A DNA stretch of 64,000 nt from Actinomadura macrotermitis (GTDB lineage: Bacteria; Actinomycetota; Actinomycetes; Streptosporangiales; Streptosporangiaceae), in contig NZ_WEGH01000004.1 of the NCBI RefSeq assembly GCF_009604375.1, forward strand, positions 682,001-746,000, read 5' to 3'. Shown in pieces: positions 32,250-46,444 of this stretch (positions are counted from its first letter, which is position 1; every line of letters begins with the position of its first letter). The notes beneath the pieces are model-generated. The model had not been told where the DNA came from. It did no database searches and worked only from the letters and a program-made list of their open reading frames with translations. A program made the translations under genes and the position numbers.

Positions 32250-32269
32250 GAACTGTCGGTGCCGCGGTC

Positions 32270-32282
32270 TAGCGTCCGTGGC
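32270..32282 (+). promoter_or_regulatory. leaderless promoter -10 (TAGCGT)
   Basis: TAGCGT at 32270-32275 lies 7 nt before the ATG at 32283. This sets the start of the 108-residue gene and argues against the slightly longer upstream frame. Confidence 0.45.
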
Positions 32283-32609
32283 ATGTACCGACAGGGAGAC
32301 ATCCTCATCGTGCCCCTCGCGGAGGAGGCCGTTCCGCCGACCGTGCGCGACCTGCCGCCCGCGCCCCGCGACGGCCGGGGCCGGATGGTGCTGGCGCTCG
32401 GCGAGGCGACCGGCCACGCGCACGCCCTCGCCGCCCCCGGCACGCTGCTGCGGTCGCCGGACCCGCTCACCCCCGACCACCTGCATCTGCCCGACGGCGG
32501 CCGGCTCGTGCACGAGGAGCACGCGGCGATCTCCCTGCCGAAGGGCTGGTACCGGGTGGTCCGGCAGCGCGAGTACGTGCCGGGCGCCGTCCGGGTGGTG
32601 GCCGACTGA
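32283..32609 (+). CDS. 108-residue uncharacterised protein coupled to DUF6745 gene
   Basis: The small cytosolic protein opens MYRQGDILIVPLAEEAVPP and contains TGHAHALAAPG and HEEHAAISLPKGWYRVVRQREY. The latter is a compact beta-rich tail seen in phage-like and plasmid-borne small proteins that start with a QGD motif. Function unknown. The stop overlaps the ATG of the DUF6745 gene (TGATG), so the two are made together. The several histidines in GHAH and HEEH could bind metal, but this is speculative. Confidence 0.75.
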   Translation: MYRQGDILIVPLAEEAVPPTVRDLPPAPRDGRGRMVLALGEATGHAHALAAPGTLLRSPDPLTPDHLHLPDGGRLVHEEHAAISLPKGWYRVVRQREYVPGAVRVVAD

Positions 32610-33607
32610 TGGACGCCCTCGACCACGCGAGCCTGCTGCTGGCCTGGCAGGAGACCGCGTTCGCCACCGGTCCGGCCGACCGTCCCCGCGCCGAGGCCGG
32701 CATCACCGCCGCCTACGCCGCCGCCGGGCTGCCCGCTCCCGGGCGCTTCGTCTGGGTCTCCTCCCCCGCCGAGGGCGCCCGCGCCGCCGCGGCCCTCACC
32801 GACGCGGGCGGCAGCGTCCGCGACGCCGTCCGCACCCGCCCGTGGGAGCGGGCCCGCGCCGCTGCCGCCGCCGAGCTCGGCCCGTCCGGGTGGGCGGCCG
32901 CCTGGGCCCGCACGGGCGCGCCGCTGTGGGAGCAGACGAGCTCCCTCGTCGCGCGCATCCGCCAGGGCCTCGGCGACGAGGAGCTGCGCGCGGCGACGCT
33001 CGACGCCGTCCTCGGCCAGCACGACGCGCCCTGGCTGGCGCTGTTCGACGAGCTCGGCCGGCTGGAGCCGCTGGCGGGCCTCGCCGAGGCCGCCCGCGCG
33101 GCGGGCTGGTGGTGGCCCCGCGAGCGCGCGGTGATCGTCTGCGAGCGGCCGGCCGAGCTGCACCGCGACGAGCCCGGCCGGCTGCACCGCGGCGACGGCC
33201 CCGCCCTCGCCTACCCCGACGGGTTCGCGCTGCACTCCTGGCGCGGCATGCCGATCCCGGCCGGCTTCGTCTCCTCGCTGGAGGGCCTCACCCCGGCCCG
33301 GATCGGCGCCGAGGAGAACGCCGAGCTGCGCCGGGTCATGCTGGAGATCTTCGGCTACGACCGCTACCTCGCCGAGACCGGCGCGCAGCCGCTGCACCGC
33401 GACGAGACGGGCGTGCTGTGGCGGATCGACCTGGCGGGCGACGAGCCGATCGTCATGGTCGAGGTCGTCAACTCCACCCCCGAGCCCGACGGCACGTCCC
33501 GCACCTACTATCTGCGGGTCCCGCCCGGCACCGCCACCGCCCGCGCGGGCGTGGCGTGGACGTTCGGCGTCAGTGAGGCCGACTACCACCCGCAGCGCGA
33601 GACCTGA
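32609..33607 (+). CDS. DUF6745 family protein
   Basis: This is a 332-residue cytosolic protein. The central signature WWWPRERAVIVCERPAELH followed by DEPGRLHRGDGPALAYPDG and the ALHSWRGMPIP strand defines DUF6745, found mostly in actinomycetes and cyanobacteria with no assigned function. A second short echo (ETGAQPLHRDETGVLWRID) lies near residue 258. It is translationally coupled to the 108-residue gene, which suggests a two-protein module. Confidence 0.75.
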   Translation: MDALDHASLLLAWQETAFATGPADRPRAEAGITAAYAAAGLPAPGRFVWVSSPAEGARAAAALTDAGGSVRDAVRTRPWERARAAAAAELGPSGWAAAWARTGAPLWEQTSSLVARIRQGLGDEELRAATLDAVLGQHDAPWLALFDELGRLEPLAGLAEAARAAGWWWPRERAVIVCERPAELHRDEPGRLHRGDGPALAYPDGFALHSWRGMPIPAGFVSSLEGLTPARIGAEENAELRRVMLEIFGYDRYLAETGAQPLHRDETGVLWRIDLAGDEPIVMVEVVNSTPEPDGTSRTYYLRVPPGTATARAGVAWTFGVSEADYHPQRET

Positions 33608-33655: not shown

Positions 33656-35002
33656 TCACGCCTGGCCCTTGTCGCAGATGTCGTCGCTGGCCCGGGTCTC
33701 GCCCTGCAGATGCGGGATGCCGCCCGAGGCGTCCTTCAGCTGCGGGAAGCCCGCCCCGATGACGAGGTCCACGACGTCGGGCGCGCCGCCCTTGCGCGGT
33801 TTGACCGCGGCGCCCGGGACCAGCTTGGCGAGCTCCTCGGCCTGCTGCCGGGCGCCGCTGCCGTAGCGGATCTGGGTCGGCGCGGGACGGGTCAGGGTGC
33901 CGACCTTCACCACCGTGTAGCCGCGCGACTTCAGGGCCGCGGCGGTGGTGCGGGCCTGCCCGGCCGCCGCGGTGGCGTTGTAGACGCGCACCTTGCCCGG
34001 CGGCACCGTCGGCTTCGGCGCGGGCGCCGGGACGGTCCGGTCCTCGCGGACGGCCTCGAAGAACGGCGCGGCGGCCTCGGTCAGCTCCACCCGGTTGGCG
34101 TCGCGCGACCAGGGCCGGCTCGGGACGGTGACGAAGCGCAGCTTGCCGGCGGTGAGCCCGCGCATGCTCTGCGCGATCTTGAGCATGTCCCCCACCGACA
34201 GCGCCCTGTCGGTGGTCAGCGATTTGGCCGAGGCGCTCAGCAGCGCGTTCAGCCGGGCGGGGTTGGCGAGCACGCCGCCGCTCATCGCCTGGTTGGCCAG
34301 TGAGCCGAGGAACCGCTGCTGGCGCTTGATGCGCTGGGTGTCGCTGCCGTCGCCGAACCCCGTGCGGCTGCGCACGTAGGCGAGCGCGTCCTCGCCCTGC
34401 ACCCGGTGCCGGCCCTGGGACATGTGCAGGCCGGACTTGCGGTCGTTCACGTCGTTGGGCAGGCAGACCCACACACCGCCGACGGCCTTGGTGATGCCCT
34501 TGAACCCGACGAAGTCGAGCTGGACGAAATGGTCGAGGTGGATGCCCGACAGCTTCTCGATCGTCTTCATCGTGCACGACGGCCCGGCCCGGCCGATCGC
34601 CTCGTTCAGCATCGCCAGCGTCGAGGAGGCCGACCTCGTGCCGTCCTCGCGGGTGCAGGAGGGGATCGGCGCCATCAGGTCGCGCGGGAAGGTGATCCCC
34701 ATCGCCTGCCGGCCGCCCGGCGACAGGTGCAGGACGATCATCGTGTCGGACGCCGGGACCTTGTTGCGGTAGCCCCGCCCGTACTTGGCGTTCGCGCCCT
34801 TGCGGCTGTCGGAGCCGAGCATGAGGATGTTGAGCGCGCCGTTCAGCTTCTTCGGCCGGTCCTTGCCGAGGAGCCGGTCGGAGTCCTCGTGCCCGATGCT
34901 GCTCTGCAGGTTCCAGTAGTACCCGTACGCCGACAGGCTGCCGGTCACCAGCAGCGCGGCGACCGCGATGGCGAGCCAGGCGAGCGGTCCTTTCGGGCGC
35001 AT
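33656..35002 (-). CDS. LytR-CpsA-Psr (LCP) family protein with LytR_C domain
   Basis: This is a 448-residue cell-wall assembly enzyme. A single N-terminal membrane helix (AWLAIAVAALLVTGSLSAYGY) anchors an extracellular LCP domain (~55-215; LNILMLGSDSRKG, SDTMIVLHLSP, ITFPRDLMAPIP, GEDALAYVRSRTGFGDGSDTQRIKRQ split over motifs). A LytR_C domain follows (~335-425; KVRVYNATAAAGQA). LCP proteins transfer lipid-linked glycopolymers to peptidoglycan. The ATG overlaps the stop of the 37-codon ORF, making it the last gene of the STM4015-STM4011 operon. Confidence 0.9.
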   Translation of the reverse strand: MRPKGPLAWLAIAVAALLVTGSLSAYGYYWNLQSSIGHEDSDRLLGKDRPKKLNGALNILMLGSDSRKGANAKYGRGYRNKVPASDTMIVLHLSPGGRQAMGITFPRDLMAPIPSCTREDGTRSASSTLAMLNEAIGRAGPSCTMKTIEKLSGIHLDHFVQLDFVGFKGITKAVGGVWVCLPNDVNDRKSGLHMSQGRHRVQGEDALAYVRSRTGFGDGSDTQRIKRQQRFLGSLANQAMSGGVLANPARLNALLSASAKSLTTDRALSVGDMLKIAQSMRGLTAGKLRFVTVPSRPWSRDANRVELTEAAAPFFEAVREDRTVPAPAPKPTVPPGKVRVYNATAAAGQARTTAAALKSRGYTVVKVGTLTRPAPTQIRYGSGARQQAEELAKLVPGAAVKPRKGGAPDVVDLVIGAGFPQLKDASGGIPHLQGETRASDDICDKGQA

Positions 35003-35115
35003 CAGCGGCTTCCGCCGATGTGCCTGGCCAGCCGCTCGCGCTGGCGGGCGAGCGCGGCCGGCGACCGGGCCTCCAGGGCGCGGCCGAGGTCGCGCAGTAA
35101 CTTCAGGATGTCCAT
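35002..35115 (-). CDS. 37-residue basic amphipathic peptide downstream of radical SAM gene
   Basis: The ORF reads MDILKLLRDLGRALEARS...RHIGGSR. It predicts one amphipathic, Arg-rich helix with leucines spaced 3-4 apart and a GGSR tail. An AAGAGG ribosome site lies 9 nt before ATG 35115. Its stop overlaps the LCP start codon. It lies 61 bp after the STM4011-type radical SAM gene, behind a 13-bp inverted repeat. It could be a leader that couples LCP translation, a regulatory peptide, or a peptide substrate of the adjacent radical SAM enzymes. It has no Cys; possible modification sites are Ser, Arg, His and Asp. No known family is recognised. Confidence 0.5.
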   Translation of the reverse strand: MDILKLLRDLGRALEARSPAALARQRERLARHIGGSR

Positions 35116-35130
35116 GCGGAACGCCTCTTT

Positions 35131-35171
35131 CCGGGTGGCATGTCGGCTATGTATCGCCACATGCCACCCGG
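35131..35171 (-). promoter_or_regulatory. 13-bp perfect inverted repeat preceding the 37-codon ORF
   Basis: CCGGGTGGCATGT (35131-35143) and its exact complement (35159-35171) flank a 15-nt spacer. On the minus-strand transcript the hairpin starts 5 nt after the radical SAM stop and directly abuts the AAAGAGG ribosome site of the 37-codon ORF. It could be a processing site, an attenuator, or a protein-binding site; the large loop argues against a simple terminator. Confidence 0.6.
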
Positions 35172-35176
35172 CGGGT

Positions 35177-36022
35177 TCACGCCAGGACCGGGATCCGTTC
35201 CAGCACCCCGCCCCGGAAGACGTCGTAGAGGCCGAGCGGCTCCAGATGGACGTAGCCGATGTGGCAGTCGCAGGCCGCCAGCGGGCAGGCGCGGGGCTTC
35301 AGTGCGGCGCGGAACGAACCGTCGTAGAGGTTGCCGAGGACCGCCGGGACGAAGTGGCAGCGCCGCACCGTCCCGTCGCCGTCCACCGACACGACGCTCT
35401 CCCCCGTCCGGCAGGGCAGGCCGGCGCTCGCGTGCGGACGGCGGCTGTAGGAGAACAGCGGGTCGAGCTCGGCCCAGGGCGCGGCCTCGGCGTCGGTGTA
35501 GGAGCGGCCCTCGGCGGCGTTGACCCACAGGTAGACGCCTGCGGGCAGGTCGGCCCGCAGGCGGCGCGCGGCGTCCAGGTGCTCGGGCTGCCCGACCACC
35601 CCGACACTGAACCGGACCCCGCGTTCGTGCAGGTCACGGCACTTTTCGAGGAACCTCTCGTGGGAGACCTGACCGGGATGGTAGGTCGTCCAGAGCGCGA
35701 GGGTGGCCAGGTCCGCCTCGGCCGTCCAGGCGGTGCGGTGGCTCAGGTTCGTCTGGATCGCGACGCGCTCGACATGCGGCAGGTGGCTCAGCCGGACGAG
35801 CGCGCGCCGGTACCAGGACCGGACGAGCCCCTCCCCCCACGGCGTGAACAGCACCGAGACCGGGTGCTCCTGCGCGGCGACCCAGCCTTCGAACCGCTCC
35901 AGCGCCGCCCGGTCGGCGCGCAGCTGCTCGGGGGTGTCGCGGCGCTTGGCGAACGGGCAGTAGGGGCAGTCGTAGTCGCAGCTGGCGAGCGGCCCCCGGT
36001 ACAGGATCGTCAGGTGCTCCAT
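35177..36022 (-). CDS. STM4011-family radical SAM protein
   Basis: This is a 281-residue radical SAM enzyme. Its 4Fe-4S cysteines are Cys15, Cys19 and Cys22 (ASCDYDCPYCPF). The C-terminal third has further cysteines in a SPASM/twitch-like arrangement (LPCRTGESVVSVDGDG, VRRCHFVP, ACPLAACDCHIG), as in peptide-modifying enzymes. It belongs to the STM4011 group that travels with STM4012-STM4015; the product is unknown. Its ATG overlaps the stop of the STM4012 gene (TGATG). A hairpin and a 37-codon ORF follow. Confidence 0.88.
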   Translation of the reverse strand: MEHLTILYRGPLASCDYDCPYCPFAKRRDTPEQLRADRAALERFEGWVAAQEHPVSVLFTPWGEGLVRSWYRRALVRLSHLPHVERVAIQTNLSHRTAWTAEADLATLALWTTYHPGQVSHERFLEKCRDLHERGVRFSVGVVGQPEHLDAARRLRADLPAGVYLWVNAAEGRSYTDAEAAPWAELDPLFSYSRRPHASAGLPCRTGESVVSVDGDGTVRRCHFVPAVLGNLYDGSFRAALKPRACPLAACDCHIGYVHLEPLGLYDVFRGGVLERIPVLA

Positions 36023-37278
36023 CAGCGGGCCTCGTAGGCGTCCATGAGGGACTGTACGCGCGGGGAGAACAGCGCCGGGCCGATCGCGTCGGAGTAGGCG
36101 AGGCCCTCGGGGGTGAGGCGGAGGTGATCGCCCTCTTCCAGCCAGCCGTGCTCGCGGAAGGGCGCGAGGTCGAAGTCGTCGGCGGCGTCGGTGCCGAACC
36201 GGGCCCGGTAGCCGGCCCGGTCCAGGCCGGCGGCCTGCAGCAGCGACTGCAGGAGGTGGCGGCGGCGCCGCTCGTCGTCGTCCAGCCGGAACCCGACGCG
36301 GGCGGTGGCGAAGTCGCCGGCCCGGACGTAGTCGTCGATGATCGCGCGGACCTGGCTCGCGCCGACCGCGTACTCGAACGAGTAGTGCAGGTCGGCGGTG
36401 TAGGAGCGGGCGCCGCAGCCGAGGCCGACCATGCCGTCGGTCTGGCAGCAGTACTCGGTGCCGGTGGCGTCGCCCGGCAGCCGGAACATGCGCATGGAGA
36501 CCTGCTCGTAGCCCTCGGCGAGCAGGTGGTCGCGGCCGATGCGGTACAGCTCCAGGCGGTGGTCGTCCCAGTCGTCGCGGCGGGCCAGGCCGGTCAGCGG
36601 CCGCTTGTACAGCGGGTAGAGGTAGAGCTCCTCGGGCTTCCAGGCGAGCGCGGCGTTCAGCGAGTACAGCCAGCTCTCGGGGGTCTGCCCGTCGATGCCG
36701 TAGATCAGGTCGATGTTCAGCACGGGGATCGCCGCCGCGCGGATGCGCTCCAGCGCCGCCTCCACCTCGGCGCGCTTCTGCGGCCGGATGGCCGCGCGGG
36801 CCTCGGCGTCGACGAAGCTCTGCACGCCGATGGAGATCCGGGTGGTGCCGCGCTCGGCCAGCACCGCGAGCCGGTCGGCGGTCGCGGTCGCCGGGGAGGT
36901 CTCCACGCCGAGCGGGATCGCGCCGACGCCCGCGATGTCGCAGAGCCGCGCCAGCTCGGCGGCGGTGAGGTAGGTCGGGGTGCCGCCGCCGAACGCGGCG
37001 GTGGCGAACGTCGCGTCGCCGAGCGCGCCGCGGACGGCGGCGGCCTGCCGCTCCAGCGCGTCCAGGTAGGCGCCGGTCAGCTCCTCGGGCGCGCCGGTGC
37101 GGGTGAACAGGTTGCAGAAGCCGCAGCGCATCTCGCAGAACGGGATGTGCAGGTAGAGGAAGAGGGCGTCCTTGGCCTCGCCGGCCCAGACCTCCTCCAG
37201 CTTCGGCTCGGGGTCCAGCGGCCGGTAGGCGGTCTTGTGCGGATAGGCGTAGACGTATCCCTGGTAGGGGCTGGTCAT
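36022..37278 (-). CDS. STM4012-family HemN-like radical SAM protein
   Basis: This is a 418-residue radical SAM protein with Cys48, Cys52 and Cys55 (HIPFCEMRCGFCNLF). It has the HemN-like core (FGGGTPTYLTAAEL, TRISIGVQSFVD, NIDLIYGIDGQTPESW) and a HemN_C-like helical tail. Unlike coproporphyrinogen dehydrogenase it belongs to the STM4012 group found next to STM4011. The ATG overlaps the sulfatase-like stop (ATGA). Two radical SAM enzymes in succession suggest two chemical steps, or one catalytic and one cofactor-supplying partner; this is not established. Confidence 0.88.
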   Translation of the reverse strand: MTSPYQGYVYAYPHKTAYRPLDPEPKLEEVWAGEAKDALFLYLHIPFCEMRCGFCNLFTRTGAPEELTGAYLDALERQAAAVRGALGDATFATAAFGGGTPTYLTAAELARLCDIAGVGAIPLGVETSPATATADRLAVLAERGTTRISIGVQSFVDAEARAAIRPQKRAEVEAALERIRAAAIPVLNIDLIYGIDGQTPESWLYSLNAALAWKPEELYLYPLYKRPLTGLARRDDWDDHRLELYRIGRDHLLAEGYEQVSMRMFRLPGDATGTEYCCQTDGMVGLGCGARSYTADLHYSFEYAVGASQVRAIIDDYVRAGDFATARVGFRLDDDERRRRHLLQSLLQAAGLDRAGYRARFGTDAADDFDLAPFREHGWLEEGDHLRLTPEGLAYSDAIGPALFSPRVQSLMDAYEAR

Positions 37279-38066
37279 GGCAGCAGGAACTCCCCGTATG
37301 GAACGGTCCAGACGACCTCGTGGCCGATGCGGTGGCCGGTGTGGCCGTCCTCGCCGTAGGCGGTGCCGTGGTCGGAACAGACGATGACGAAGCAGGGGCG
37401 GCGCATCAGCGCGAACAGCCGCCCGATGTGGGCGTCGACGTGCTCGAGCGCGGCGGCGTGGCTGGCGCGGGTGTCGCCGTGCTCGCGGGTGGCGCCCTCC
37501 AGGTGGAACCAGTTGGGCTGGTGCAGCGCGGCGACGTTGAGCAGCAGGAACAGCCGCCTGTCTTCCGGCAGCCGGGCGACGATCTCGGCGACGCGGTCGA
37601 TCTGGTTCGGCAGCGACGCCGGGTCGGTCACCCCGAACTCCGGTTCCCAGTGGCTCTCGGCGAACAGCGACGGCAGCGCCGAGCCGAGCGCCGTCCGGTT
37701 GTTGAAGAAGCCGACGCCGCCGACGCAGGCGGTGTGGTAGCCGGCGTCCGCGAGGCCGGTGGGCAGGTCGGCGGCGTCGAACGTCCAGGTGCCTTCGGCG
37801 GTCGTCTCGCTGCCGGGGAACGCCGCCGCGAACAGCCGCGGGTGCGGGCCCGGCTCGGCCGGCGTCGGCAGGAAACCGGCCAGGATCGCGGCGTGCGCGG
37901 CGTAGGTGAAGCTGCCGGGCGTGTGCCGCCTCTCCCAGCGGCCGCCGGGCAGCAGCGCGGCCAGGTTCGGGGTCCGGCCGGACGCCGCCAGCTCCTCGGC
38001 GACGTCGTGGCGCAGGGTGTCCAGGGTCACCAGCAGCACGTCGTGGCTGCCGATGATCTCGTTCAT
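37275..38066 (-). CDS. STM4013-family sulfatase-like hydrolase
   Basis: This is a 263-residue member of the alkaline phosphatase/sulfatase superfamily. Metal-binding residues are visible in LLVTLDTLRHDV (Asp16) and CSDHGTAYGEDGHTGH (Asp232/His233). The usual nucleophile region is HTPGSFTYAAHAAILAGF. There is no signal peptide, so it acts in the cytosol. ATG 38066 is chosen because it overlaps the upstream stop (ATGA); ATG 38075 is an alternative. It belongs to the STM4013 group of the STM4011-4015 cluster. Confidence 0.87.
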   Translation of the reverse strand: MNEIIGSHDVLLVTLDTLRHDVAEELAASGRTPNLAALLPGGRWERRHTPGSFTYAAHAAILAGFLPTPAEPGPHPRLFAAAFPGSETTAEGTWTFDAADLPTGLADAGYHTACVGGVGFFNNRTALGSALPSLFAESHWEPEFGVTDPASLPNQIDRVAEIVARLPEDRRLFLLLNVAALHQPNWFHLEGATREHGDTRASHAAALEHVDAHIGRLFALMRRPCFVIVCSDHGTAYGEDGHTGHRIGHEVVWTVPYGEFLLP

Positions 38067-39103
38067 GTCATGCATGCTCTGACCTGTGCGGTGTAGGTGT
38101 CGATCCCCTCGGCGGGTCCGCCGGGGAAGCCGGTGAGGCCGGGCAGCAGGTCGCCGAACGCGTTGACCTCGCCGACCGCGAACCGCCGCCAGCCGACGCC
38201 GATCAGCAGGTCGACGCCGACCATCAGGCTGCCGGGGAAGCACGCGGCCGCCCGCGCGCACACGTCCAGGGCGCGGTGCCAGCCGTCCTCGCCGAGGGCG
38301 CCGCGGACGGCGGCGAGGTCGCCGCGGGTGCCGCCGAGGTGCAGGTTCGTCATCGGTGAGGCGCTCGTCCGCACCACGGCGTGGGTCGGCTCGCCCTTGA
38401 CCACCACGACGCGCAGGTCCAGCGCCCGGCCGCCCGGCGAGGCCTTCGGCAGCCACCGCTCCACGTGCAGGCCGTCGGGGGCGAGCGCGTCGATCAGCTC
38501 GGCGACCTCCCGCTCGGTCTCGTAGGAGCGCACCCGCAGCGAGTTGTGGAAGCCGTCCGGGCCGCGCGCCGCCGAGGTCACCGCCTTGATCCGGCCGGGC
38601 GCCGTCTGCAGCGCGACGACACCGGACGCCGACGAGCCGTGCGCGGGCTTGACGAACACCCGCCGCTCCCCCGTCTCCGCCATCCGCTTCCGCAGCTCGT
38701 CATAACCCCCCACCTGTGGCAACGCGGGCGGGACGGGTACCCCGGCGGCCTCCAGCCGGGCGTGGCAGCGGCGCTTGTCGAACATGACGGCGATGTCGTC
38801 CACGTCGTGTGTGGACCGCACCCGCGGCAGCCGCCGGAGCGCGCCGGTGAACGCGGCGTACCAGGCGGCGCCGCCGCCGACCCGCGCGGGGTCGCCGGGA
38901 CCGCGCAGCAGCTCGTCGGCCTCGCGGTCCTCACCGGGCGAGTCGATCCGCAGCACCGAGCCGGGCGCGACGGCCACCTCGGCGCCGCGCAGCACGCCGG
39001 CCCAGCCGATCACGCGGGGCTCGGCGAGGCCGGCGGACCGGCAGGCGGCGGCGAACAGCCCCACCCGCCGGTCCCCCGGCGCGCCGACGACGGTGAACCT
39101 CAT
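38063..39103 (-). CDS. STM4014-family ATP-grasp-like protein
   Basis: This is a 346-residue protein with ATP-grasp features. The nucleotide-binding segment RVFVKPAHGSSASGVVAL is followed by GRALDLRVVVVKGEP and the metal/catalytic end GVDLLIGVGWRRFAVGEVNAFGD. Such enzymes form amide, peptide or thioester bonds using ATP. The family is one of the named but uncharacterised STM4011-4015 group. Both ends overlap their neighbours by four bases, so its level is tied to the LRR proteins upstream. Confidence 0.85.
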   Translation of the reverse strand: MRFTVVGAPGDRRVGLFAAACRSAGLAEPRVIGWAGVLRGAEVAVAPGSVLRIDSPGEDREADELLRGPGDPARVGGGAAWYAAFTGALRRLPRVRSTHDVDDIAVMFDKRRCHARLEAAGVPVPPALPQVGGYDELRKRMAETGERRVFVKPAHGSSASGVVALQTAPGRIKAVTSAARGPDGFHNSLRVRSYETEREVAELIDALAPDGLHVERWLPKASPGGRALDLRVVVVKGEPTHAVVRTSASPMTNLHLGGTRGDLAAVRGALGEDGWHRALDVCARAAACFPGSLMVGVDLLIGVGWRRFAVGEVNAFGDLLPGLTGFPGGPAEGIDTYTAQVRACMT

Positions 39104-40047
39104 TCGGGCACCATCACATAGGCGCCGAGGTTGTCCTGCCATTCGTCAGCGGGAGAGACCATCACGAGCCGCCCATCGTCCACATCCGTTTCGACGCCGG
39201 GCAACGCGGTGCGCAGCCGCTCGACCATCGCATCGGTGAGGAAGTGGTGGTGCAGGTCGAGCCGGCGCAGATGCGCCGGTGGCTGACCGGACAGCAGCGC
39301 CTCGGCACCGGTGTCGGTCAACACGCCCATGGCCAGGCTGAGCGACTCCAGCCGCGCCACGACCGGCGCATTCGCCACGGCCGCTGCGATCTCGTCCTGG
39401 AACTCGCTGTTCTCCAGCCCGAGGTGCCGCAGTGCCGGGAACCGCTCACCGCTGAGTATCGGCGCGAGGTCGGACACGGTGGCGTCGCCGCCGGAGAACG
39501 CGGCGCCGAGCCACAGGTCCAGGTGCTCCAGGTTCGGCAGGTCACTCGCCGCGACCACGTCGACCAGCTCGCCGGGCAGGCCGCTGGACTCGATCCGCAG
39601 TCGCCGCAGGAGCCCGCTGGCGAGCGGCTCGAACCACAGGCCGCGCGTGCCCCGGATCTCCAACGTTTCCAGTTGCGAGAGCTCCTGGAGGAGGAGGGTG
39701 AGGTCAGTGTGTTCGATCCACGAGATCGTGTCTTCTTCGTAGCTCACATCGCCGATGAACAGGGCCCGCAGCGAGGGGAACCGCTCACGGGCCTGCAGAA
39801 GCAGGTCCACCGGGTGGCTCCCGTCGATCGGACAGGCCCAGTAACCGAGGACCAGCGCGGACACCCGTGCGGTGTCGACGCGCTCCAGGAAACGCTCGAA
39901 GACCTCGGCCCAGCCAGGACCACCCAGTTCGGTTCTGATCCGCCAGGCCACCTCGGCGGCGTCGGGTAGATCGTCCGCAAGCGTCCCAGGGCCGAAGTCG
40001 GCGACGGGCAGGTCCGCGAACACCGTCAGATGCTCCCCGTCTGTCAT
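39100..40047 (-). CDS. STM4015-family leucine-rich-repeat protein, copy 1
   Basis: This 315-residue cytosolic protein is the last of four tandem paralogs. The N-terminal third contains LPVADFG, EVFERFLERVDTARVSALVLGYW and ISWIEHTDLT. The C-terminal half is a run of LRRs with ASDLPNLEHLDLWLG, LRHLGLENSEFQDEIAAAV and HLRRLDLHHHFLTD, nearly shared by all copies. LRRs usually bind proteins. The closing segment (VMVSPADEWQDNLGAYVMVPE) differs from the others. It overlaps copy 2 and STM4014 by four bases each. Confidence 0.88.
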   Translation of the reverse strand: MTDGEHLTVFADLPVADFGPGTLADDLPDAAEVAWRIRTELGGPGWAEVFERFLERVDTARVSALVLGYWACPIDGSHPVDLLLQARERFPSLRALFIGDVSYEEDTISWIEHTDLTLLLQELSQLETLEIRGTRGLWFEPLASGLLRRLRIESSGLPGELVDVVAASDLPNLEHLDLWLGAAFSGGDATVSDLAPILSGERFPALRHLGLENSEFQDEIAAAVANAPVVARLESLSLAMGVLTDTGAEALLSGQPPAHLRRLDLHHHFLTDAMVERLRTALPGVETDVDDGRLVMVSPADEWQDNLGAYVMVPE

Positions 40048-40955
40048 TCGGTCACCATCACATAGAACCCGCGCTCTTCCCCGCCGTACTGCGGGTCGGA
40101 GAGGTCGACCTCGGTGGCGGGCAGCGCGGCGCGCAGCCGTTCCGCCATCGTGTCGGTCAGGAAGTGGTGGTGCAGATCGAGGCGGCGCAGGTGGGTGAGG
40201 GGCTGCCCGGACAGCAGCGCCTCGGCGCCGCGGTCAGACAGCACGCCCATGGCCAGGCTGAGCGACTCCAACCGTGCCACGACCGGGGCACCCGCCACCG
40301 CCGTCGCGATCTCGTCCTGGAACTCGCTGTTCTCCAGCCCGAGATGGCGCAGCGCCGGGAACCGGTCGCCGGCCAGGAACGGCGCGAAGTCGGCCAGTTC
40401 GGTGGTGCAGCCGTAGTCCTCGTCGCCGAGCCACAGGTCCAGGTGCTCCAGGTTCGGCAGGTCGCTCGCGGCCACCGCCCGGACGACCTCGCCGGGCAGG
40501 CCGCCCGTCTCGAACCGCAGCCGCCGCAGCACGCTACCGGCGACCGGTTCGAATTCGAGCCCGGAACCGCCGCGCGCCTCCAGCACCTCCAGCCGTGGAA
40601 AGGCGGCGACGAGCGGAGTGAGGTCGCCCTGGTTGATCCAGGAGATCTCGAACTCCTCGCCGGTGATGTCCCCGGCGAACACCGCCCGCAGCGCGGGGAA
40701 CCGGTCAGCGGCCTCGACCAGCAGCCCGGCAGGGCAGGTGCCGCTCCAGAAGCCGAGGATCAGCGCGGTCACCCGTTCGGTGTCGACACAGTCCAGGAAG
40801 TCTTCGAAGACGTCCTCCCACGACGGGTCGACGTAGTGGGAGCGCACGCGCCAGGCGACGGCGGCGGCGTCCGGCAGGGACTCGGTGTCGGTCTCGGTGT
40901 CGAAGTCGAAGACCGGCAAGTCGGCGAACTCCGTGAGGTGGTGCCCGACGCTCAT
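40044..40955 (-). CDS. STM4015-family leucine-rich-repeat protein, copy 2
   Basis: This is a 303-residue paralog; ATG 40955 overlaps the copy 3 stop. Its distinctive segments are FDFDTETDTESLPDAAAV, EVLEARGGSGLEFEPVAGS and DYGCTTELADFAPFLAGD, which replaces the GGDATV turn of the other copies. The LRR half is otherwise close to copies 1, 3 and 4. The shorter length comes mainly from a deletion around residues 65-70. No membrane segment or catalytic motif is seen. Confidence 0.87.
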   Translation of the reverse strand: MSVGHHLTEFADLPVFDFDTETDTESLPDAAAVAWRVRSHYVDPSWEDVFEDFLDCVDTERVTALILGFWSGTCPAGLLVEAADRFPALRAVFAGDITGEEFEISWINQGDLTPLVAAFPRLEVLEARGGSGLEFEPVAGSVLRRLRFETGGLPGEVVRAVAASDLPNLEHLDLWLGDEDYGCTTELADFAPFLAGDRFPALRHLGLENSEFQDEIATAVAGAPVVARLESLSLAMGVLSDRGAEALLSGQPLTHLRRLDLHHHFLTDTMAERLRAALPATEVDLSDPQYGGEERGFYVMVTE

Positions 40956-41905
40956 TCCGACACCGCCACGAAAGCCCAGGGATCTTCCTCCCAGGAGTTC
41001 CTGACGTGGGCGTACTCGAGCTGCGGCGCCCCGGCGTCCACCTCCACGCCCGGCAGCGCGGCGCGCAGCCGCGCCACCGCCTCCTCGGTCATGACGTGGT
41101 GGTGCACGTCCAGCCTGCGCAGATGAGTGAGCGGCTGCCCGGACAGCAGCGCCTCGGCGCCCCGGTCGGACAGCACGCCCAGCGCCAGGCTGAGCGACTC
41201 CAGCCGCGCTACGACCGGCGCACCCGCCACCGCCGCCGCGATCTCGTCCTGCATGGGGCTGTTCTCCAGCCCGAGGTGGCGCAGCGCCGGAAAGCGCTCG
41301 CCGCCGAGGAACGGCGCGAGATCGGCGACGGTGGCGTCGCCGCCGTACTCCGCGACGCCCAGCCACAGGTCCAGATGCTCCAGGTTCGGCAGATCGCTCG
41401 CGGCCACTGCCTGGACGACCCCGCGCGGCAGGCCACCCGTCTCGAAGCGCAGCCGCCGCAGCGCGGTGCTCGCCACCGGTTCGAGGCGCAGGCCCACGCT
41501 GCCCCGCACCTCCAGGCGCTCCAGCAGCGGGAACGCGCCGACGACCGGGGTGAGGTCGCGGTGCTGGAGCCAGGAGACCTCCGACTCCTCCGTCGCGACG
41601 TCCCCGACGAACAACGCCCGCAGGTCCGGGAACCGGTCGCGGGCCTGGACGAGCGCCTCCACCGGGTAGACGGCGTCGGGCTCGTCCAGGTCGCCCCAGT
41701 GGCCGGCGATCAGGGCCGTCACCCGCTCGGCGCCGACGTGCTCCAGGAAGCGGCCGAAGACCTCCTCCCACCAGGGCTCGTCGAACCCGGCCCGGATCCG
41801 CCAGGCCACCGCGGCGGCGTCCGGCGGCAGGTCCGGGCCGGTCTCGGGACCGAAGTCGAAGACCGGCAGGCCCGCGAACTCCGTGAGGTGACCGCCTACG
41901 GTCAC
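40952..41905 (-). CDS. STM4015-family leucine-rich-repeat protein, copy 3
   Basis: This is a 317-residue paralog with MTVGGHLTEFAGLPVFDFG at the N-terminus and a divergent C-terminal tail (AGAPQLEYAHVRNSWEED). It is the only copy with MTEEAVARLRAAL instead of LTDAM in the last repeat, and with PMQDEIAAAV instead of EFQDEI. It overlaps copies 2 and 4 by four bases. These differences mark it as the most diverged in the last repeats. Confidence 0.87.
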   Translation of the reverse strand: MTVGGHLTEFAGLPVFDFGPETGPDLPPDAAAVAWRIRAGFDEPWWEEVFGRFLEHVGAERVTALIAGHWGDLDEPDAVYPVEALVQARDRFPDLRALFVGDVATEESEVSWLQHRDLTPVVGAFPLLERLEVRGSVGLRLEPVASTALRRLRFETGGLPRGVVQAVAASDLPNLEHLDLWLGVAEYGGDATVADLAPFLGGERFPALRHLGLENSPMQDEIAAAVAGAPVVARLESLSLALGVLSDRGAEALLSGQPLTHLRRLDVHHHVMTEEAVARLRAALPGVEVDAGAPQLEYAHVRNSWEEDPWAFVAVSE

Positions 41906-42831
41906 TCCGACACCTCGATGAAGCGCCAGTCTCCGTCCGCCTTGTTCTGGTCGTCCAGGTCGACCTCGACGCCCGGCAGCGCGGCGCGGACCCGCTCCAT
42001 CATCGCGTCGGTCAGGAAGTGGTGGTGCAGGTCGAGGCGGCGCAGGTGGGTGAGGGGCTGCCCCGACAGCAGCGCCTCGGCGCCGGCGTCGGTCAGCACG
42101 CCCATGGCCAGGCTGAGCGACTCCAGCCGCGCCACGACCGGCGCGCCCGCCACCGCCGCCGCGATCTCGTCCTGCAGTTCGCTGTTCTCCAGCCCGAGAT
42201 GGCGCAGCGTGGGCAGCCGCTCACCGCTGAGGAACGGCGCGAGGTCGGCGACGGTGGCGTCGCCGCCGTAGTTCTCGGTGCCGAGCCACAGGTCCAGGTG
42301 CTCCAGGTTCGGCAGGTCGCTCGCGGCCACCGCCCGGACGATCTCGCCGGGCAGGCCGCCGCTCTCGAACCGCAGCGTCTTCAGCCGCCCGCTCTTCACC
42401 GGGTCGAGCCGCATGTCCTGCGAGCCGCGCACGTCGAACCGCTCCAGCCCGGGGAACGCCGCGAACAGCGGGGTGATGTCGGTGTGCTCGATCCAGGAGA
42501 CCTCCGACTCCTCCATGACGATGTCACCGAGGAACAGCGACCGCAGGTTCGGGAACCGGTCCGCCGCGGCGGTCAGCAGCGCGACCGGGTCGCCGGTCTC
42601 CTGGTCGTAGGACGCGCCCCAGTAGCCGATGAGCAGCGCGGTGATCTGCTCGGTGTCGACGGCCTCCAGGAACCGGGCGAAGACCTCGTCGAACGGCGCC
42701 TCGTCGAACATGGTCAGCACCCGCCAGGCGTGCCCGGCGGCGGACGGCAGCTCGGCGCCGTCCTCGGTCTCGCAGTCGAAGATCGCCACCGGCAGCCCGG
42801 CGTACTCCTCGAGGTGCGCGTTCACAGTCAT
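41902..42831 (-). CDS. STM4015-family leucine-rich-repeat protein, copy 4 (first in operon)
   Basis: This is a 309-residue paralog and the first gene of the ten-gene minus-strand operon. ATG 42831 is chosen for the conserved MTVNAHLEEYAGLPV start and a GAAAGGA ribosome site 11 nt upstream; a longer frame adds eight unconserved residues. The middle (FDVRGSQDMRLDPVKSGRLKTLRF) is diverged, and the LRR half (LRHLGLENSELQDEIAAAVAG) matches its sisters. A dyad-symmetric element lies just upstream. Confidence 0.87.
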   Translation of the reverse strand: MTVNAHLEEYAGLPVAIFDCETEDGAELPSAAGHAWRVLTMFDEAPFDEVFARFLEAVDTEQITALLIGYWGASYDQETGDPVALLTAAADRFPNLRSLFLGDIVMEESEVSWIEHTDITPLFAAFPGLERFDVRGSQDMRLDPVKSGRLKTLRFESGGLPGEIVRAVAASDLPNLEHLDLWLGTENYGGDATVADLAPFLSGERLPTLRHLGLENSELQDEIAAAVAGAPVVARLESLSLAMGVLTDAGAEALLSGQPLTHLRRLDLHHHFLTDAMMERVRAALPGVEVDLDDQNKADGDWRFIEVSE

Positions 42832-42923: not shown

Positions 42924-43553
42924 TCAGAGGCGGTCGATCTCCGTGAGGTCGATGTCGATGTCGAACGGCACGGTCAGCTTCAGCCGGTCATGGTGGATGC
43001 CCACCAGCCCGTACTGGCCGGTGGCCGGGTCGAGCTCGTAGACGCAGACCATGGGACGGCCGTCGACGTTCTCGACCCGCCAGAAATGTCGGATACCAGC
43101 CTTGGCGTAGAGCTGCGGCTTGCGCTCGCGGTCCCGCTCCTCCGAATCCGGCGAGACGACCTCGACCGCCAGGACCACATCTTCCGGCTGGAAGTTGGTC
43201 TGCGCGGGGGTAGTGACCGCTTCCGCTCTTAGGAGCAGGATGTCCGGTTCAGGGCGCTGCCTTTTAGCGAGCGTGACCGTCATCTCCCGCCGCACTCGCA
43301 GCGTCTCCGGTGCTGAGCGACGCAGCCCGTTCACAAGAACGTCCATCACCACCGTGTGGAAACTGGCCTGGGGACTCACGAAGACGAGCGTGCCATCAAT
43401 GAGCTCGGTGTGAGCGGGCAACTGCGGAAGGCGATCGAGATCCTCTGCGGTGAACCCGCCCTCTGGAGGTATGAGCCATGAAGGCACACCTGAGCGTCCT
43501 TCGGGCATGGACCGCTCGAACGCATGCGGCTCCGGCATGGGCTCTGCCGTCAT
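42924..43553 (-). CDS. Uma2-family (DUF820) putative restriction-like nuclease
   Basis: This is a 209-residue PD-(D/E)xK-fold protein. The fold's acidic residues are Glu50 (HTELIDGTLVFVSP), Asp104 (RPEPDILLL), Glu131 in LAVEVVSPDSEER, and Lys145 (DRERKPQLYAKAGI), followed by HFWRVE. ATG 43553 has GGAGG 6 nt upstream. Uma2 genes are abundant in actinomycetes and cyanobacteria; activity and role are unproven. No methylase or toxin partner is next to it. Confidence 0.85.
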   Translation of the reverse strand: MTAEPMPEPHAFERSMPEGRSGVPSWLIPPEGGFTAEDLDRLPQLPAHTELIDGTLVFVSPQASFHTVVMDVLVNGLRRSAPETLRVRREMTVTLAKRQRPEPDILLLRAEAVTTPAQTNFQPEDVVLAVEVVSPDSEERDRERKPQLYAKAGIRHFWRVENVDGRPMVCVYELDPATGQYGLVGIHHDRLKLTVPFDIDIDLTEIDRL

Positions 43554-43644
43554 GCTGGCCTCCAGGCGAGATGCTCCACGGTGCACGTACTTACCTAGTA
43601 CTTCGGAGGCTACCAACCGCAGTCTTCCGATCGCTTCCGATCGC

Positions 43645-43680
43645 TTCCTCTGGATTCCCTCCGAGAGGAATCCAGAGGAA
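43645..43680. terminator. 14-bp perfect hairpin preceded by a tandem 10-mer
   Basis: TTCCTCTGGATTCC and its exact complement enclose an 8-nt loop. Immediately left, the 10-mer TTCCGATCGC occurs twice (43625-43644). With the second hairpin just to the right it makes a double-hairpin block between metQ and the Uma2 gene. Confidence 0.6.
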
Positions 43681-43683
43681 ACA

Positions 43684-43722
43684 GAAGGCTTCCGGGGCGG
43701 CCGCACCGCCCCGGAAGCCTTC
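43684..43722 (-). terminator. 17-bp perfect hairpin ending metNIQ
   Basis: GAAGGCTTCCGGGGCGG and its exact complement enclose a 5-nt loop, 11 bp past the metQ stop on the minus strand. This is a strong candidate terminator of the methionine transport operon. Confidence 0.85.
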
Positions 43723-43733
43723 TTGAGGTCGAA

Positions 43734-44555
43734 TCAGGAGGAAGCGGAGGGCAGGACCGAGCCCTGGTACTTGTCCTGGATGAACTTCTTCACCTCGGGG
43801 CCCTGCAGGAGCTTGACGAGCTTCTGGACGCGCGGGTCGTCCTTCTTGCCCGGCAGGGTGACCAGGCCGTTGGCGTAGGGGTTGCCCTCGGCCTTCTCCA
43901 GCGCGAGGGCGTCCTTGGCCGGGGTGAGGCCGGTCTTCAGGGCGTAGTTGCCGTTGATGACCGACAGGTCGACCTCGTCCAGGGAGCGGGGCAGCTGGGC
44001 CGGCTTCAGGGCCTTGAACTTCAGGCCCTTGGGGTTGGCGGCGATGTCCTTCTCGGTGGCCGAGGTCGGCGCGCCCGGCTTGAGGGTGATCAGGCCGTTG
44101 TCGGCGAGCAGCTTCAGGCCGCGGCCCTGGTTGGCCGGGTCGTTGGAGATCGCGACGGTGGCGCCCTGCGGCACCGCCTTCAGGTCCTTCAGCTTCTTGG
44201 AGTACACGCCCAGCGGCTCCAGGTGGACCGGCGCGACGAAGGTCAGCTTCTTGCCCTTGGCCTTCTCGAACTCCTGCATGAACGGCACGTGCTGGAAGTA
44301 GTTCGCCTGGACCTGGTTCTCGACCAGGGCGGTGTTGGGCTGGACGTAGTCGTCGAACTCGACGATCTCCAGCTTCAGCCCCGCCTTGGCGGCCAGGTTG
44401 TCCTTGACGTACTTGAGGATCTCCCCGTGCGGAACGGGGTTGACCGCGACCTTCAGCGGGCCGTCGGACTTGTCGGAGGCGTCGGAGGAGCCGCAGGCGG
44501 TGAGGCCGGCGAGCAGTCCGACGGAGGCCAGCGCGATGGTGATCTTACGGAGCAC
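43734..44555 (-). CDS. metQ: methionine-binding lipoprotein MetQ
   Basis: This is a 273-residue NlpA/MetQ-type substrate-binding lipoprotein. GTG 44555 with AGAAAGG upstream gives a signal peptide whose lipobox LTAC places the lipid-modified Cys at residue 21. The mature part has the MetQ features VAVNPVPHGEILKYVKDNLA, VEFDDYVQPNTAL and YFQHVPFMQEF. It captures D/L-methionine outside the membrane and delivers it to MetI/MetN. It is the third gene of metN-metI-metQ. Confidence 0.93.
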   Translation of the reverse strand: MLRKITIALASVGLLAGLTACGSSDASDKSDGPLKVAVNPVPHGEILKYVKDNLAAKAGLKLEIVEFDDYVQPNTALVENQVQANYFQHVPFMQEFEKAKGKKLTFVAPVHLEPLGVYSKKLKDLKAVPQGATVAISNDPANQGRGLKLLADNGLITLKPGAPTSATEKDIAANPKGLKFKALKPAQLPRSLDEVDLSVINGNYALKTGLTPAKDALALEKAEGNPYANGLVTLPGKKDDPRVQKLVKLLQGPEVKKFIQDKYQGSVLPSASS

Positions 44556-44577
44556 GAAGAGTGCCTTTCTGGGCGTG

Positions 44578-45237
44578 TTACTTGTGGGTGAGGCGCCGGG
44601 TGACCAGGTCACCGAGCATCTGGATCAGTTGGACGAGGACGATGAGCACCACCACGGTGGCGATCATGACCTTGGTCTCGAAGCGTTCGTAGCCGTAGCT
44701 GATGGCCAGGTAGCCGAGGCCGCCGCCGCCGACCGTGCCCGCCATCGCGGTGTAGCCGACGAGCGCGATGACGGTGACGGTGAGGCCCGACACCAGGCCG
44801 GGCCGGGCCTCGCGCAGCAGCACCTTGACGACGAGCTCGCGCCGGGAGGCGCCCATCGCGCGGGCCGCGGCGAGGACGCCGGGGTCGACCTCGCGCAGCG
44901 CGGCCTCGACCAGGCGGGCGTAGAAGGGGATCGCGCCGATGGTGAGCGGCACGATCATGGCGGTGTTGCCGTAGGAGGTGCCGCCGGTCACCAGCTTGGT
45001 GAACGGGATCAGCGCGATCATCAGGATCAGGAACGGCAGCGAGCGGCCGACGTTGACGATCACGCCGAGCACCTTGTTCAGGGGGCGCAGCGGGGTGAGG
45101 CCGCCGCGGTCGGTGAGCACCAGCAGCACCCCGACCAGCAGCCCGAACACCCCGGCGAGGGCCGAGGACACGCCGGTCATCAGCAGCGTCTCGCCGGTCG
45201 CCTTCTGCAGCAGGGGCCAGATCTCGTCCCAGGTCAT
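44578..45237 (-). CDS. metI: methionine ABC transporter permease MetI
   Basis: This is a 219-residue membrane permease with five predicted helices. The ABC-interacting EAA loop is EAALREVDPGVLAAARAMGASRRE. Other family marks are NVGRSLPFLILMIALIPFT and GTVGGGGLGYLAISYGYERF. ATG 45237 overlaps the metN stop (ATGA). Confidence 0.94.
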   Translation of the reverse strand: MTWDEIWPLLQKATGETLLMTGVSSALAGVFGLLVGVLLVLTDRGGLTPLRPLNKVLGVIVNVGRSLPFLILMIALIPFTKLVTGGTSYGNTAMIVPLTIGAIPFYARLVEAALREVDPGVLAAARAMGASRRELVVKVLLREARPGLVSGLTVTVIALVGYTAMAGTVGGGGLGYLAISYGYERFETKVMIATVVVLIVLVQLIQMLGDLVTRRLTHK

Positions 45238-46241
45238 CGGGCCGCCTCCACTTCGCTGCGGCCGTGCACCTCGACGGTCAGGCCGGCGTCGCGCAGGTGC
45301 GCCAGCTGGGCCGCGTTCGTCTCGGGGTCGCCGGGCAGCTCGACGCGCAGCCGGCCGACGCGGGTGCCGCCGACCTCCTCGACGGCGCCGCCGAGGATGT
45401 TGACGTCGATGGCGTAGGTGCGGGCGAGCGACGACACGAACGGCCGGTCGGCGCTGTCGCCCTCGAACGTCACGTCCGCCACGGTGGTGCCGGGCCGCGG
45501 GTCGGGCGCCGGCAGCGGGAACAGGTCGCGGGCGAGCTCGGAGCCGGGCCGCAGCAGCAGGTCGCGGACGGGCCCCGACTCCACGAAGCGGCCGTCGCGC
45601 ATGATCGCGGCGCCGTCGCAGATGCGCTTGACCACGTCCATCTCGTGGGTGATCAGCAGCACGGTGAGGCCGAGCCGCCGGTTCAGGTCGCGCAGCAGCT
45701 CCAGGATGGAGGCCGTCGTCTCGGGGTCGAGCGCGGAGGTCGCCTCGTCCGACAGCAGCACCTTCGGCCGGCCGGCGAGGGCGCGGGCGATGCCGACGCG
45801 CTGCTTCTGCCCGCCGGAGATCTGCGCCGGGTAGGCGCGGGCGTGGTCGGTGAGCCCGACCAGGTCCAGCAGCTCGGCGACGCGGGCGGCGCGCTCGCCG
45901 CGCGGCACCCCCATGACCTCCAGCGGGAACGCCACGTTGCCGGCGACGGTGCGGCTGGACAGCAGCCCGAAGTGCTGGTGGATCATCCCGATCCGCTGCC
46001 GGGCCCGGCGCAGCTCGCCGCCGGACAGCGCGAGCAGGTCCTGCCCGTCCACCTCGATCCGCCCCGAGTCGGGGCGTTCCAGCAGGTTGACGCAGCGCAG
46101 CAGGGTGCTCTTGCCGGCCCCGCTGCGGCCGAGGACGCCGAAGATCTCGCCCTCGCCGACGGTGAGGTCGACGTCGTCGACGGCGGTCACGGCGCGCCCG
46201 CGGGAGCGGTAGACCTTCCGAAGTTTGTCTATCTGAATCAC
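45234..46241 (-). CDS. metN: methionine ABC transporter ATP-binding protein MetN
   Basis: This is a 335-residue ATPase. Walker A is GRSGAGKST, the signature SGGQKQRVGIARAL and Walker B PKVLLSDEATSALD, followed by the H-loop THEMDV. A C-terminal NIL domain (~255-335) is present, which in E. coli MetN binds methionine and inhibits transport. The gene starts the operon after a ~290-nt leader containing a Cys-rich micro-ORF. Confidence 0.94.
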   Translation of the reverse strand: MIQIDKLRKVYRSRGRAVTAVDDVDLTVGEGEIFGVLGRSGAGKSTLLRCVNLLERPDSGRIEVDGQDLLALSGGELRRARQRIGMIHQHFGLLSSRTVAGNVAFPLEVMGVPRGERAARVAELLDLVGLTDHARAYPAQISGGQKQRVGIARALAGRPKVLLSDEATSALDPETTASILELLRDLNRRLGLTVLLITHEMDVVKRICDGAAIMRDGRFVESGPVRDLLLRPGSELARDLFPLPAPDPRPGTTVADVTFEGDSADRPFVSSLARTYAIDVNILGGAVEEVGGTRVGRLRVELPGDPETNAAQLAHLRDAGLTVEVHGRSEVEAAR

Positions 46242-46444
46242 AGGGAATCATCCGTGCCGATATCGCCGCCGGTCGGGCGGCACGAGGTGGTGGAGCAGGA
46301 CGCGGAGCGGCCGGGTACGGCCTAGGAGAGGCCGGGCGGGTAGGGCGCGTGGCCGAGAAGGTGACGCTGGAAGTACATGTGTGCGCGGCTCGTTCTAACG
46401 ACAGGTCGCTCGCTTCGGGGCGCGAGGCTCAGCTGCGGGGGCCC

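Follow-up and report, generated by a model that had tools for sequence, protein, structure and literature searches.

The STM4011-STM4015 operon combines ATP-grasp and radical SAM enzymes with a leucine-rich repeat protein whose conserved C-terminal glutamate suggests a possible carrier

RimK adds glutamate to the C-terminus of ribosomal protein S6, and in graspetide and SPASM systems for ribosomally synthesized and posttranslationally modified peptides (RiPPs), ATP-grasp or radical S-adenosylmethionine (SAM) enzymes work on the C-terminal part of a ribosomal peptide. Graspetide ligases close amide or ester rings in acidic peptides, and the formation of pyrroloquinoline quinone (PQQ) links a tyrosine to a glutamate. 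The carrier proteins LysW and ArgW have a C-terminal glutamate and receive their substrate from the ligases LysX and ArgX (as outlined in PMC10433800). In pearlin biosynthesis, a PEARL enzyme adds an amino acid to the C-terminus of a carrier, followed by modifications that include one by a radical SAM enzyme (as outlined in PMC9303977). Here, we compare these systems with the STM4011-STM4015 operon found in a 64,000-nucleotide (nt) stretch of Actinomadura macrotermitis (contig NZ_WEGH01000004.1, positions 682,001 to 746,000; hereafter, the window). The operon encodes leucine-rich repeat (LRR) proteins (STM4015), an ATP-grasp ligase (STM4014), a sulfatase-like protein (STM4013), and two radical SAM enzymes (STM4012 and STM4011). 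These five families, named by Salmonella locus numbers, recur in Streptomyces, Paenibacillus, Deinococcus, cyanobacteria, Bacteroides, E. coli, and Salmonella. In agreement with a preliminary description of the window, our literature search (with most subscription journals and preprints outside its reach) found no established function for them, nor did it return a paper combining LRR, radical SAM, and ATP-grasp proteins with a RiPP or gene cluster or combining LRR, radical SAM, and a precursor peptide.

The most conserved feature of STM4015 is its last residue. We examined 86 named loci (6 plasmid records plus 80 loci from a genome-contig collection, the latter being the top-ranked 80 among 538 confirmed relatives and skewed to Paenibacillus) and 80 family loci (from further members of the window's taxonomic family, 36 of the loci coming from its genus). 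Together with the window, these loci gave 247 near-complete STM4015 open reading frames (ORFs; near-complete meaning coverage of >60% of the profile), all of which end in glutamate. Further loci added 31 distinct proteins, 30 of them Glu-ended, for a total of 277 out of 278 across six phyla (Actinomycetota, Bacillota, Pseudomonadota, Deinococcota, Bacteroidota, and Cyanobacteriota). Without the coverage filter, 254 of 260 ORFs in the first set were Glu-ended, the remaining six being fragments or other frames that matched at 27 to 174 bits. Position -6 is tyrosine or phenylalanine in 243 of the 247 proteins, and 232 fit the pattern [YF]..[VIL][STAG]E, as in WRFIEVSE (window), WRYPSLTE (Paenibacillus), WRFVAVGE (Streptomyces), and WRYVALGE (Deinococcus); the tails of Salmonella and Bacteroides read YMNAMYTE and WYYPMITE. 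The linker before the tail is variable and on average acidic (over the 12 preceding residues, net acidity averages 4.4 and ranges from -3 to 9; a control stretch averages 1.1). As controls, the last residues of STM4011 to STM4014 were spread over many amino acids, with the commonest reaching 29 to 52%.

STM4015 and the enzymes are inherited together. Among 298 genomes of the window's family, 163 have both STM4011 and STM4015 over the cutoff, 132 have neither, one has only STM4011 (G257), and two have only STM4015 (G233 and G064); as the genomes are related, a Fisher value for this co-occurrence is merely descriptive. A member is lacking in 8 of 167 operon stretches, four of which stop at a contig edge (L105, L109, L156, and L177), while the rest (STM4014 is missing from two, STM4013 from one, and STM4015 from one) have the missing gene elsewhere in the genome. 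Genome G233 has STM4014, STM4013, and STM4012 as well as a weak STM4011 match. In G064, none of STM4011 to STM4014 exceeds the cutoff (its best STM4012 match belongs to a general background of HemN-type proteins that all eight genomes examined share), and no family member was found in the 15 kb around its STM4015. This genome encodes the sole near-complete STM4015 of the 278 that does not end in glutamate: the LRR body is kept, and the protein ends in PYFPAIID. Nine STM4015 copies that lie apart from the STM4011 of their genome or record keep the terminal glutamate. The loss in G064 and the retention elsewhere would fit a tail that is kept because the enzymes use it. Another candidate for a copy apart from an operon (L237) was discarded, as STM4014 adjoins it, and five ORFs of only weak LRR similarity (L242, L243, L244, L251, and L258) are not Glu-ended. 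Genome G028 (L217:2565-2957; L229) carries a 131-amino-acid STM4015 remnant beside STM4014 that has lost most of its LRR and is still Glu-ended (RPFVVVGE).

The reading that we favor, at slightly less than even confidence, is that STM4015 is a substrate or carrier, that STM4014 modifies or charges its C-terminal glutamate, and that the radical SAM enzymes act at that site. What we observe is the tail, its conservation, the co-inheritance, and the predicted STM4014 fold; all chemical steps, their order, and the fate of the product are inferred. STM4015 would then be the operon's substrate or carrier and not a bystander scaffold, its LRR body presenting a C-terminal peptide composed of a usually acidic linker and, typically, [W/Y]-R-[Y/F]-x-x-[V/L/I]-[S/T/A/G]-Glu-COOH. 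Working like LysX, ArgX, or RimK, STM4014 would activate a carboxyl of the terminal glutamate and join an amine to it, probably an amino acid. STM4011 and STM4012 could next act on the newly joined group or on aromatic residues within the tail, and STM4013, in some lineages together with a haloacid dehalogenase (HAD) phosphatase, may trim, transfer, or release a phospho- or sulfo-group. Multiple STM4015 copies in an operon (up to six near-complete ones at the family loci) would serve as parallel carriers, and either a small product would be released or the STM4015 protein would retain the modification.

The enzymes bear on this proposal in several ways. The nearest folds of the STM4014 model (input 38063-39106, with one codon extra before the ATG) are ArgX:LysW, LysX, and RimK in VIA, all of them ligases that work at a protein C-terminus, with the RimK:RpsF complex 5zk6 among the matches; Foldseek likewise points to ArgX and LysX, and an R...TN pattern in common with the LysX alignment is present in 136 of 136 STM4014 proteins. 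All 163 STM4011 proteins contain CxxxCxxC as well as the SPASM-like cysteine patterns C..G...G..C and C-C.C, and five C-terminal cysteines are invariant among 24 sequences. The SPASM-like tail proposed in the preliminary description thus stands as a cysteine pattern and falls short as a Pfam assignment: the window protein scores 18.0 bits against a SPASM cutoff of 21.5, with 6 of 24 members matching at E values up to 0.01. STM4012 is HemN-like, and CxxxCxFC occurs in 141 of 141 relatives. The solved sequences nearest to STM4013, a member of the alkaline phosphatase superfamily, are nucleotide pyrophosphatase/phosphodiesterases and sulfatases. In Salmonella and E. coli LF82, the gene after STM4011 encodes a Cof-type HAD phosphatase; in Bacteroides, a HAD-like extension, read by eye, appears to be fused to STM4011. 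The preliminary description suggested peptide or cell surface modification, and the idea of a modified peptide or protein gains strength from the conserved end of STM4015, from the resemblance of the predicted STM4014 fold to LysX, ArgX, and RimK, and from the SPASM-like cysteines of STM4011.

The proposed carrier has both likenesses to and differences from the described systems. Like LysW, STM4015 ends in glutamate, and the nearest predicted folds of its putative ligase are ArgX and LysX. STM4015, however, is an LRR protein of ~280 to 360 residues with the tail [YF]xx[VIL][STAG]E, whereas LysW is a small zinc protein with Glu54 and the tail EDWGE; in addition, the partners in the STM4015 operon are radical SAM and phosphatase superfamily enzymes. 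RimK has an ATP-grasp fold like that predicted for STM4014 and a protein as its substrate, but STM4014 lies far under the cutoff of the RimK family (21.0 bits against TIGR00768; cutoff, 143.4), and its candidate substrate is encoded in the same operon. The charging of a carrier C-terminus followed by radical SAM modification, as proposed for STM4015, would be analogous to the pearlin pathway, except that no PEARL or protease was recognized among the conserved STM4011-STM4015 genes and the carrier would be a folded LRR protein.

Several observations weigh against a carrier charged by STM4014. By sequence, STM4014 is not specifically a RimK or a LysX: its top PDB profile match is a PPIP5K-type kinase (2.1e-4), followed by D-Ala-D-Ala ligases (1.6e-3), and Pfam ATP-grasp_3 is matched by 13 of 23 members, while RimK (PF08443) is matched at E values up to 0.01 by 3 of 23, the window protein not being among them. 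GSWGR, the motif with which LysX recognizes LysW, occurs in 0 of 136 STM4014 proteins. In the structural comparison, the lowest RimK match and glutathione synthetase score about the same (22.0 and 21.6), and another LysX entry, 1uc8, reaches only 19.5. No peptidase was recognized among the conserved genes, and some STM4015 linkers are nonacidic (net charge score down to -3). A lone STM4015 in Calothrix keeps its glutamate (the Calothrix chromosome lies outside the search), and the key case of G064 is one genome. Nor is a fixed last residue unique to STM4015, as hyp98 and DUF6745, two companions of the operon, have one as well in fewer lineages (Asp in 83 out of 83 hyp98 proteins and Thr in 99% of 71 DUF6745 proteins). 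A fixed end by itself therefore proves nothing; the stronger point is that the end is fixed next to a freely varying linker and is kept across phyla.

The tail may also be structural, since it appears ordered in both a model and a crystal. AlphaFold2 (AF2) places the tail of the first window copy with high confidence (mean predicted local distance difference test [pLDDT] score of 92 for block 301-309). Structure 2RA8, a Bacteroides fragilis relative of STM4015 (E value, 5e-88) with the tail SYPMITE, for which our literature search found no paper, is apparently ordered as far as the C-terminus (351 of 362 residues are present, and the structural alignment reaches model residue 309). The tail could thus act as a structural or regulatory latch that docks on the LRR surface of the same protein, either to complete the fold or to compete with a ligand, in which case the enzymes would act on another molecule and STM4015 would be a sensor or an assembly scaffold. 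A conserved stretch around the sequence SWI in the LRR (W113 is invariant, and S112 and I114 are nearly so) suggests another functional site and agrees with this idea. We nevertheless consider a latch unlikely, as conservation peaks at the last residue, yet the linker that should position the tail varies freely, and in G064, which lacks the enzymes, the lone STM4015 has kept its LRR body and lost its glutamate. An LRR surface could also present the tail of the same protein, which would suit either a latch or a carrier.

A further candidate explanation is RiPP-like cross-linking, in which STM4011 would join the aromatic residue at position -6 (or a tryptophan at -8) to a neighbor, or a tyrosine to glutamate as in PQQ formation, and STM4014 would form an amide or ester ring within this acidic tail as graspetide ligases do, making STM4015 a precursor with an unusually large leader. 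PsnB, a graspetide ligase, ranks third in Foldseek for STM4014 (its absence from the 50 VIA entries listed excludes nothing), SkfB, a RiPP maturation enzyme, is the solved sequence nearest to STM4011 (1e-3), and position -6 is nearly always aromatic. This residue can, however, be phenylalanine, and the linker and residue -2 seem too variable for a fixed ring. In addition, unlike the graspetide and SPASM systems, the operon showed no short precursor gene (a 37-codon ORF was the only short ORF tested), and the tail sits on a folded LRR protein. We regard this explanation as improbable. It is similarly doubtful that the operon is an ordinary accessory pathway for a small molecule or cell surface group, with the LRR protein merely holding the enzymes together and a LytR-CpsA-Psr (LCP) protein attaching the product to the wall: the sulfatase-like and phosphatase partners would agree with it, as would an LCP gene that lies directly downstream in the window and also occurs in 6 of 80 family loci, but LCP was not found in the other 74 family loci or in the 86 named loci, Gram-negatives included (some loci end early at contig ends), and the Glu-ended tail would be left unexplained.

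If STM4015 is a carrier, the system might, more tentatively, represent a new class, either of biosynthesis tethered to a protein or of protein modification, that spans at least six phyla and reaches some E. coli and Salmonella strains. A LysX/RimK-like ligase would charge the Glu tail of an LRR carrier, two radical SAM enzymes would elaborate it, and the LRR horseshoe would dock the enzymes. LRR proteins would then count among the few carriers that bacteria use for building molecules, the two radical SAM enzymes would gain a substrate, and 2RA8 would be the structure of the system's carrier. The Glu-ended tail makes the carrier reading directly and cheaply testable as an operon-dependent change in the mass of the C-terminus.

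In the window, ten ORFs lie on the minus strand from 42831 to 33656 (Table 1). The eight proteins encoded by the four STM4015 copies and by STM4014, STM4013, STM4012, and STM4011 all exceed the NCBIfam cutoffs (275 bits for STM4015, 175 for STM4014, 250 for STM4013, 380 for STM4012, and 200 for STM4011), and their genes are adjacent, which bears out the gene content and order given in the preliminary description. With the best-fitting starts (the higher coordinates in Table 1; an ATG for STM4014, and for STM4013 38075 is also possible), successive genes overlap by 4, 4, 4, 4, 4, 4, and 1 nt. The overlapping ten-gene unit described earlier therefore holds for these eight genes; a 61-nt gap separates them from the 37-codon ORF and the LCP gene, a pair that shares a 1-nt overlap. 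The DUF6745 gene, preceded by the hyp98 gene, is convergent to the LCP gene at a distance of 48 nt. The window proteins match the NCBIfam STM4011-STM4015 families (NF038073-76 and NF006067), whose names carry no tested function, and share the Salmonella and E. coli LF82 gene order; the window differs in having four STM4015 copies, LCP, and the 37-codon ORF. The tandem copies share a mean of 30% identity in the last alignment block. In columns 161-260 the four copies are 64 to 95% alike per 20-column block, versus 44 to 61% in the N-terminal half, with the linker also less alike, and the greater likeness of the C-terminal LRR half might reflect gene conversion or diversification of one part.

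Table 1. Coordinates of the operon and its neighbors in the window
Feature	Position	Strand	Evidence
STM4015 copy 1, LRR protein, 309 aa	41902..42831	-	NF038076, 390.5 bits; AF2 pLDDT 96; tail ...DWRFIEVSE, codons 41905-41931
STM4015 copy 2, 317 aa	40952..41905	-	NF038076, 357 bits; tail ...PWAFVAVSE
STM4015 copy 3, 303 aa	40044..40955	-	NF038076, 357.5 bits; tail ...GFYVMVTE
STM4015 copy 4, 315 aa	39100..40047	-	NF038076, 336 bits; tail ...GAYVMVPE
STM4014, ATP-grasp ligase, predicted LysX/ArgX/RimK-like fold	38063..39103	-	NF038074, 427 bits; Foldseek, VIA, PDB profile search
STM4013, alkaline phosphatase/sulfatase superfamily hydrolase or transferase	37275..38066	-	NF038075, 406 bits
STM4012, HemN-like radical SAM enzyme	36022..37278	-	NF006067, 623 bits; CxxxCxFC motif
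STM4011, radical SAM enzyme with SPASM-like C-terminal Cys pattern	35177..36022	-	NF038073, 412 bits
37-codon ORF, lineage specific, outside the conserved system	35002..35115	-	tblastn versus 80 family loci
LCP family glycopolymer transferase, lineage-specific neighbor	33656..35002	-	PF03816, TIGR00350
DUF6745 protein, convergent companion	32609..33607	+	PF20530, 360 bits
hyp98, small conserved protein paired with DUF6745	32259..32609	+	Profile match beside operons of Streptomyces, Methylobacterium, and Deinococcus

The operon is real and not a chance arrangement, because the same five families adjoin one another in other phyla. Genes arranged as STM4015-4014-4013-4012-4011 are also present in Paenibacillus, Streptomyces, Nocardia, Methylobacterium, Undibacterium, Deinococcus, Acaryochloris, Salmonella, and E. 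coli LF82 (the listing was sorted by the start of overlapping stop-to-stop ORFs, and neighbors appear swapped in some rows). Salmonella STM4011 was matched in 154 of 5426 complete E. coli genomes. Outside the window's taxonomic family the system is sparse in the phylum, since STM4015 matches occurred in just 6 of 396 genomes, the window's genome among them. An Armatimonadetes contig (L109) holds only STM4012 and STM4011 before it ends. In E. coli LF82 (L230) and Salmonella (L046), the operon and the Cof-HAD gene lie between typA/glnA and sulfoquinovose-type (yih/ompL) genes. On a Bacteroides finegoldii plasmid, STM4015, STM4014, and a STM4011-HAD fusion resemble a minimal system of three genes, but short STM4013 and STM4012 fragments remain between STM4014 and the fusion (L047:7572-7950), and the copy is a decayed one. 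The STM4015 of this plasmid has an N-terminus that we take to be WGR-like. No close relatives of STM4011 were found among the viral contigs searched, and two matches labeled as phages were Salmonella records, so a phage or viral origin was rejected.

The LCP protein and the 37-codon ORF, which the preliminary description counted as parts of the system, are local additions. LCP, although a clear family member in the window (136 bits against the LytR_cpsA_psr cutoff of 24.6), was sought with a profile of this single protein, which very divergent LCPs could escape; all six family loci that have it are among the 36 of the window's genus. Clear relatives of the 37-codon ORF, sought in the family loci, occur in 2 of 80 (L162 and L147) among the tblastn matches listed, the further rows beginning at an E value of 0.025 and looking like composition noise; among the six LCP loci, these two are the only ones with a clear relative of the short ORF. 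Given their rarity, neither is a core part, and the cell surface half of the earlier pathway idea has no comparative support from these neighbor counts. The usual operon companion in the sampled Actinobacteria, Deinococcus, and Methylobacterium is instead the hyp98/DUF6745 pair, which, like the STM4015 tail, is absent from the earlier account. Of the family loci, 63 of 80 have both genes, as do 20 of the 86 named loci, in varying orientation (four sequences made up the hyp98 profile, and L044 10239-10649 among them appears unrelated). The DUF6745 protein of Deinococcus weakly matches LRR models.

As for known anti-phage defense, PADLOC returned no convincing match to the operon proteins submitted (LRR copies 1 and 4, STM4014, STM4013, STM4012, and STM4011), the weak match of STM4012 to PDC-M51A (7.7e-6) being a stray one. 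Upstream of the first LRR gene, the protein at 42924-43706, which is presumably Uma2-like, matches the PADLOC candidate PDC-S03 (2.8e-18). At 43734-46251 there are what, judged by eye, are methionine-type ABC transporter genes (a MetQ-like lipoprotein and a permease).

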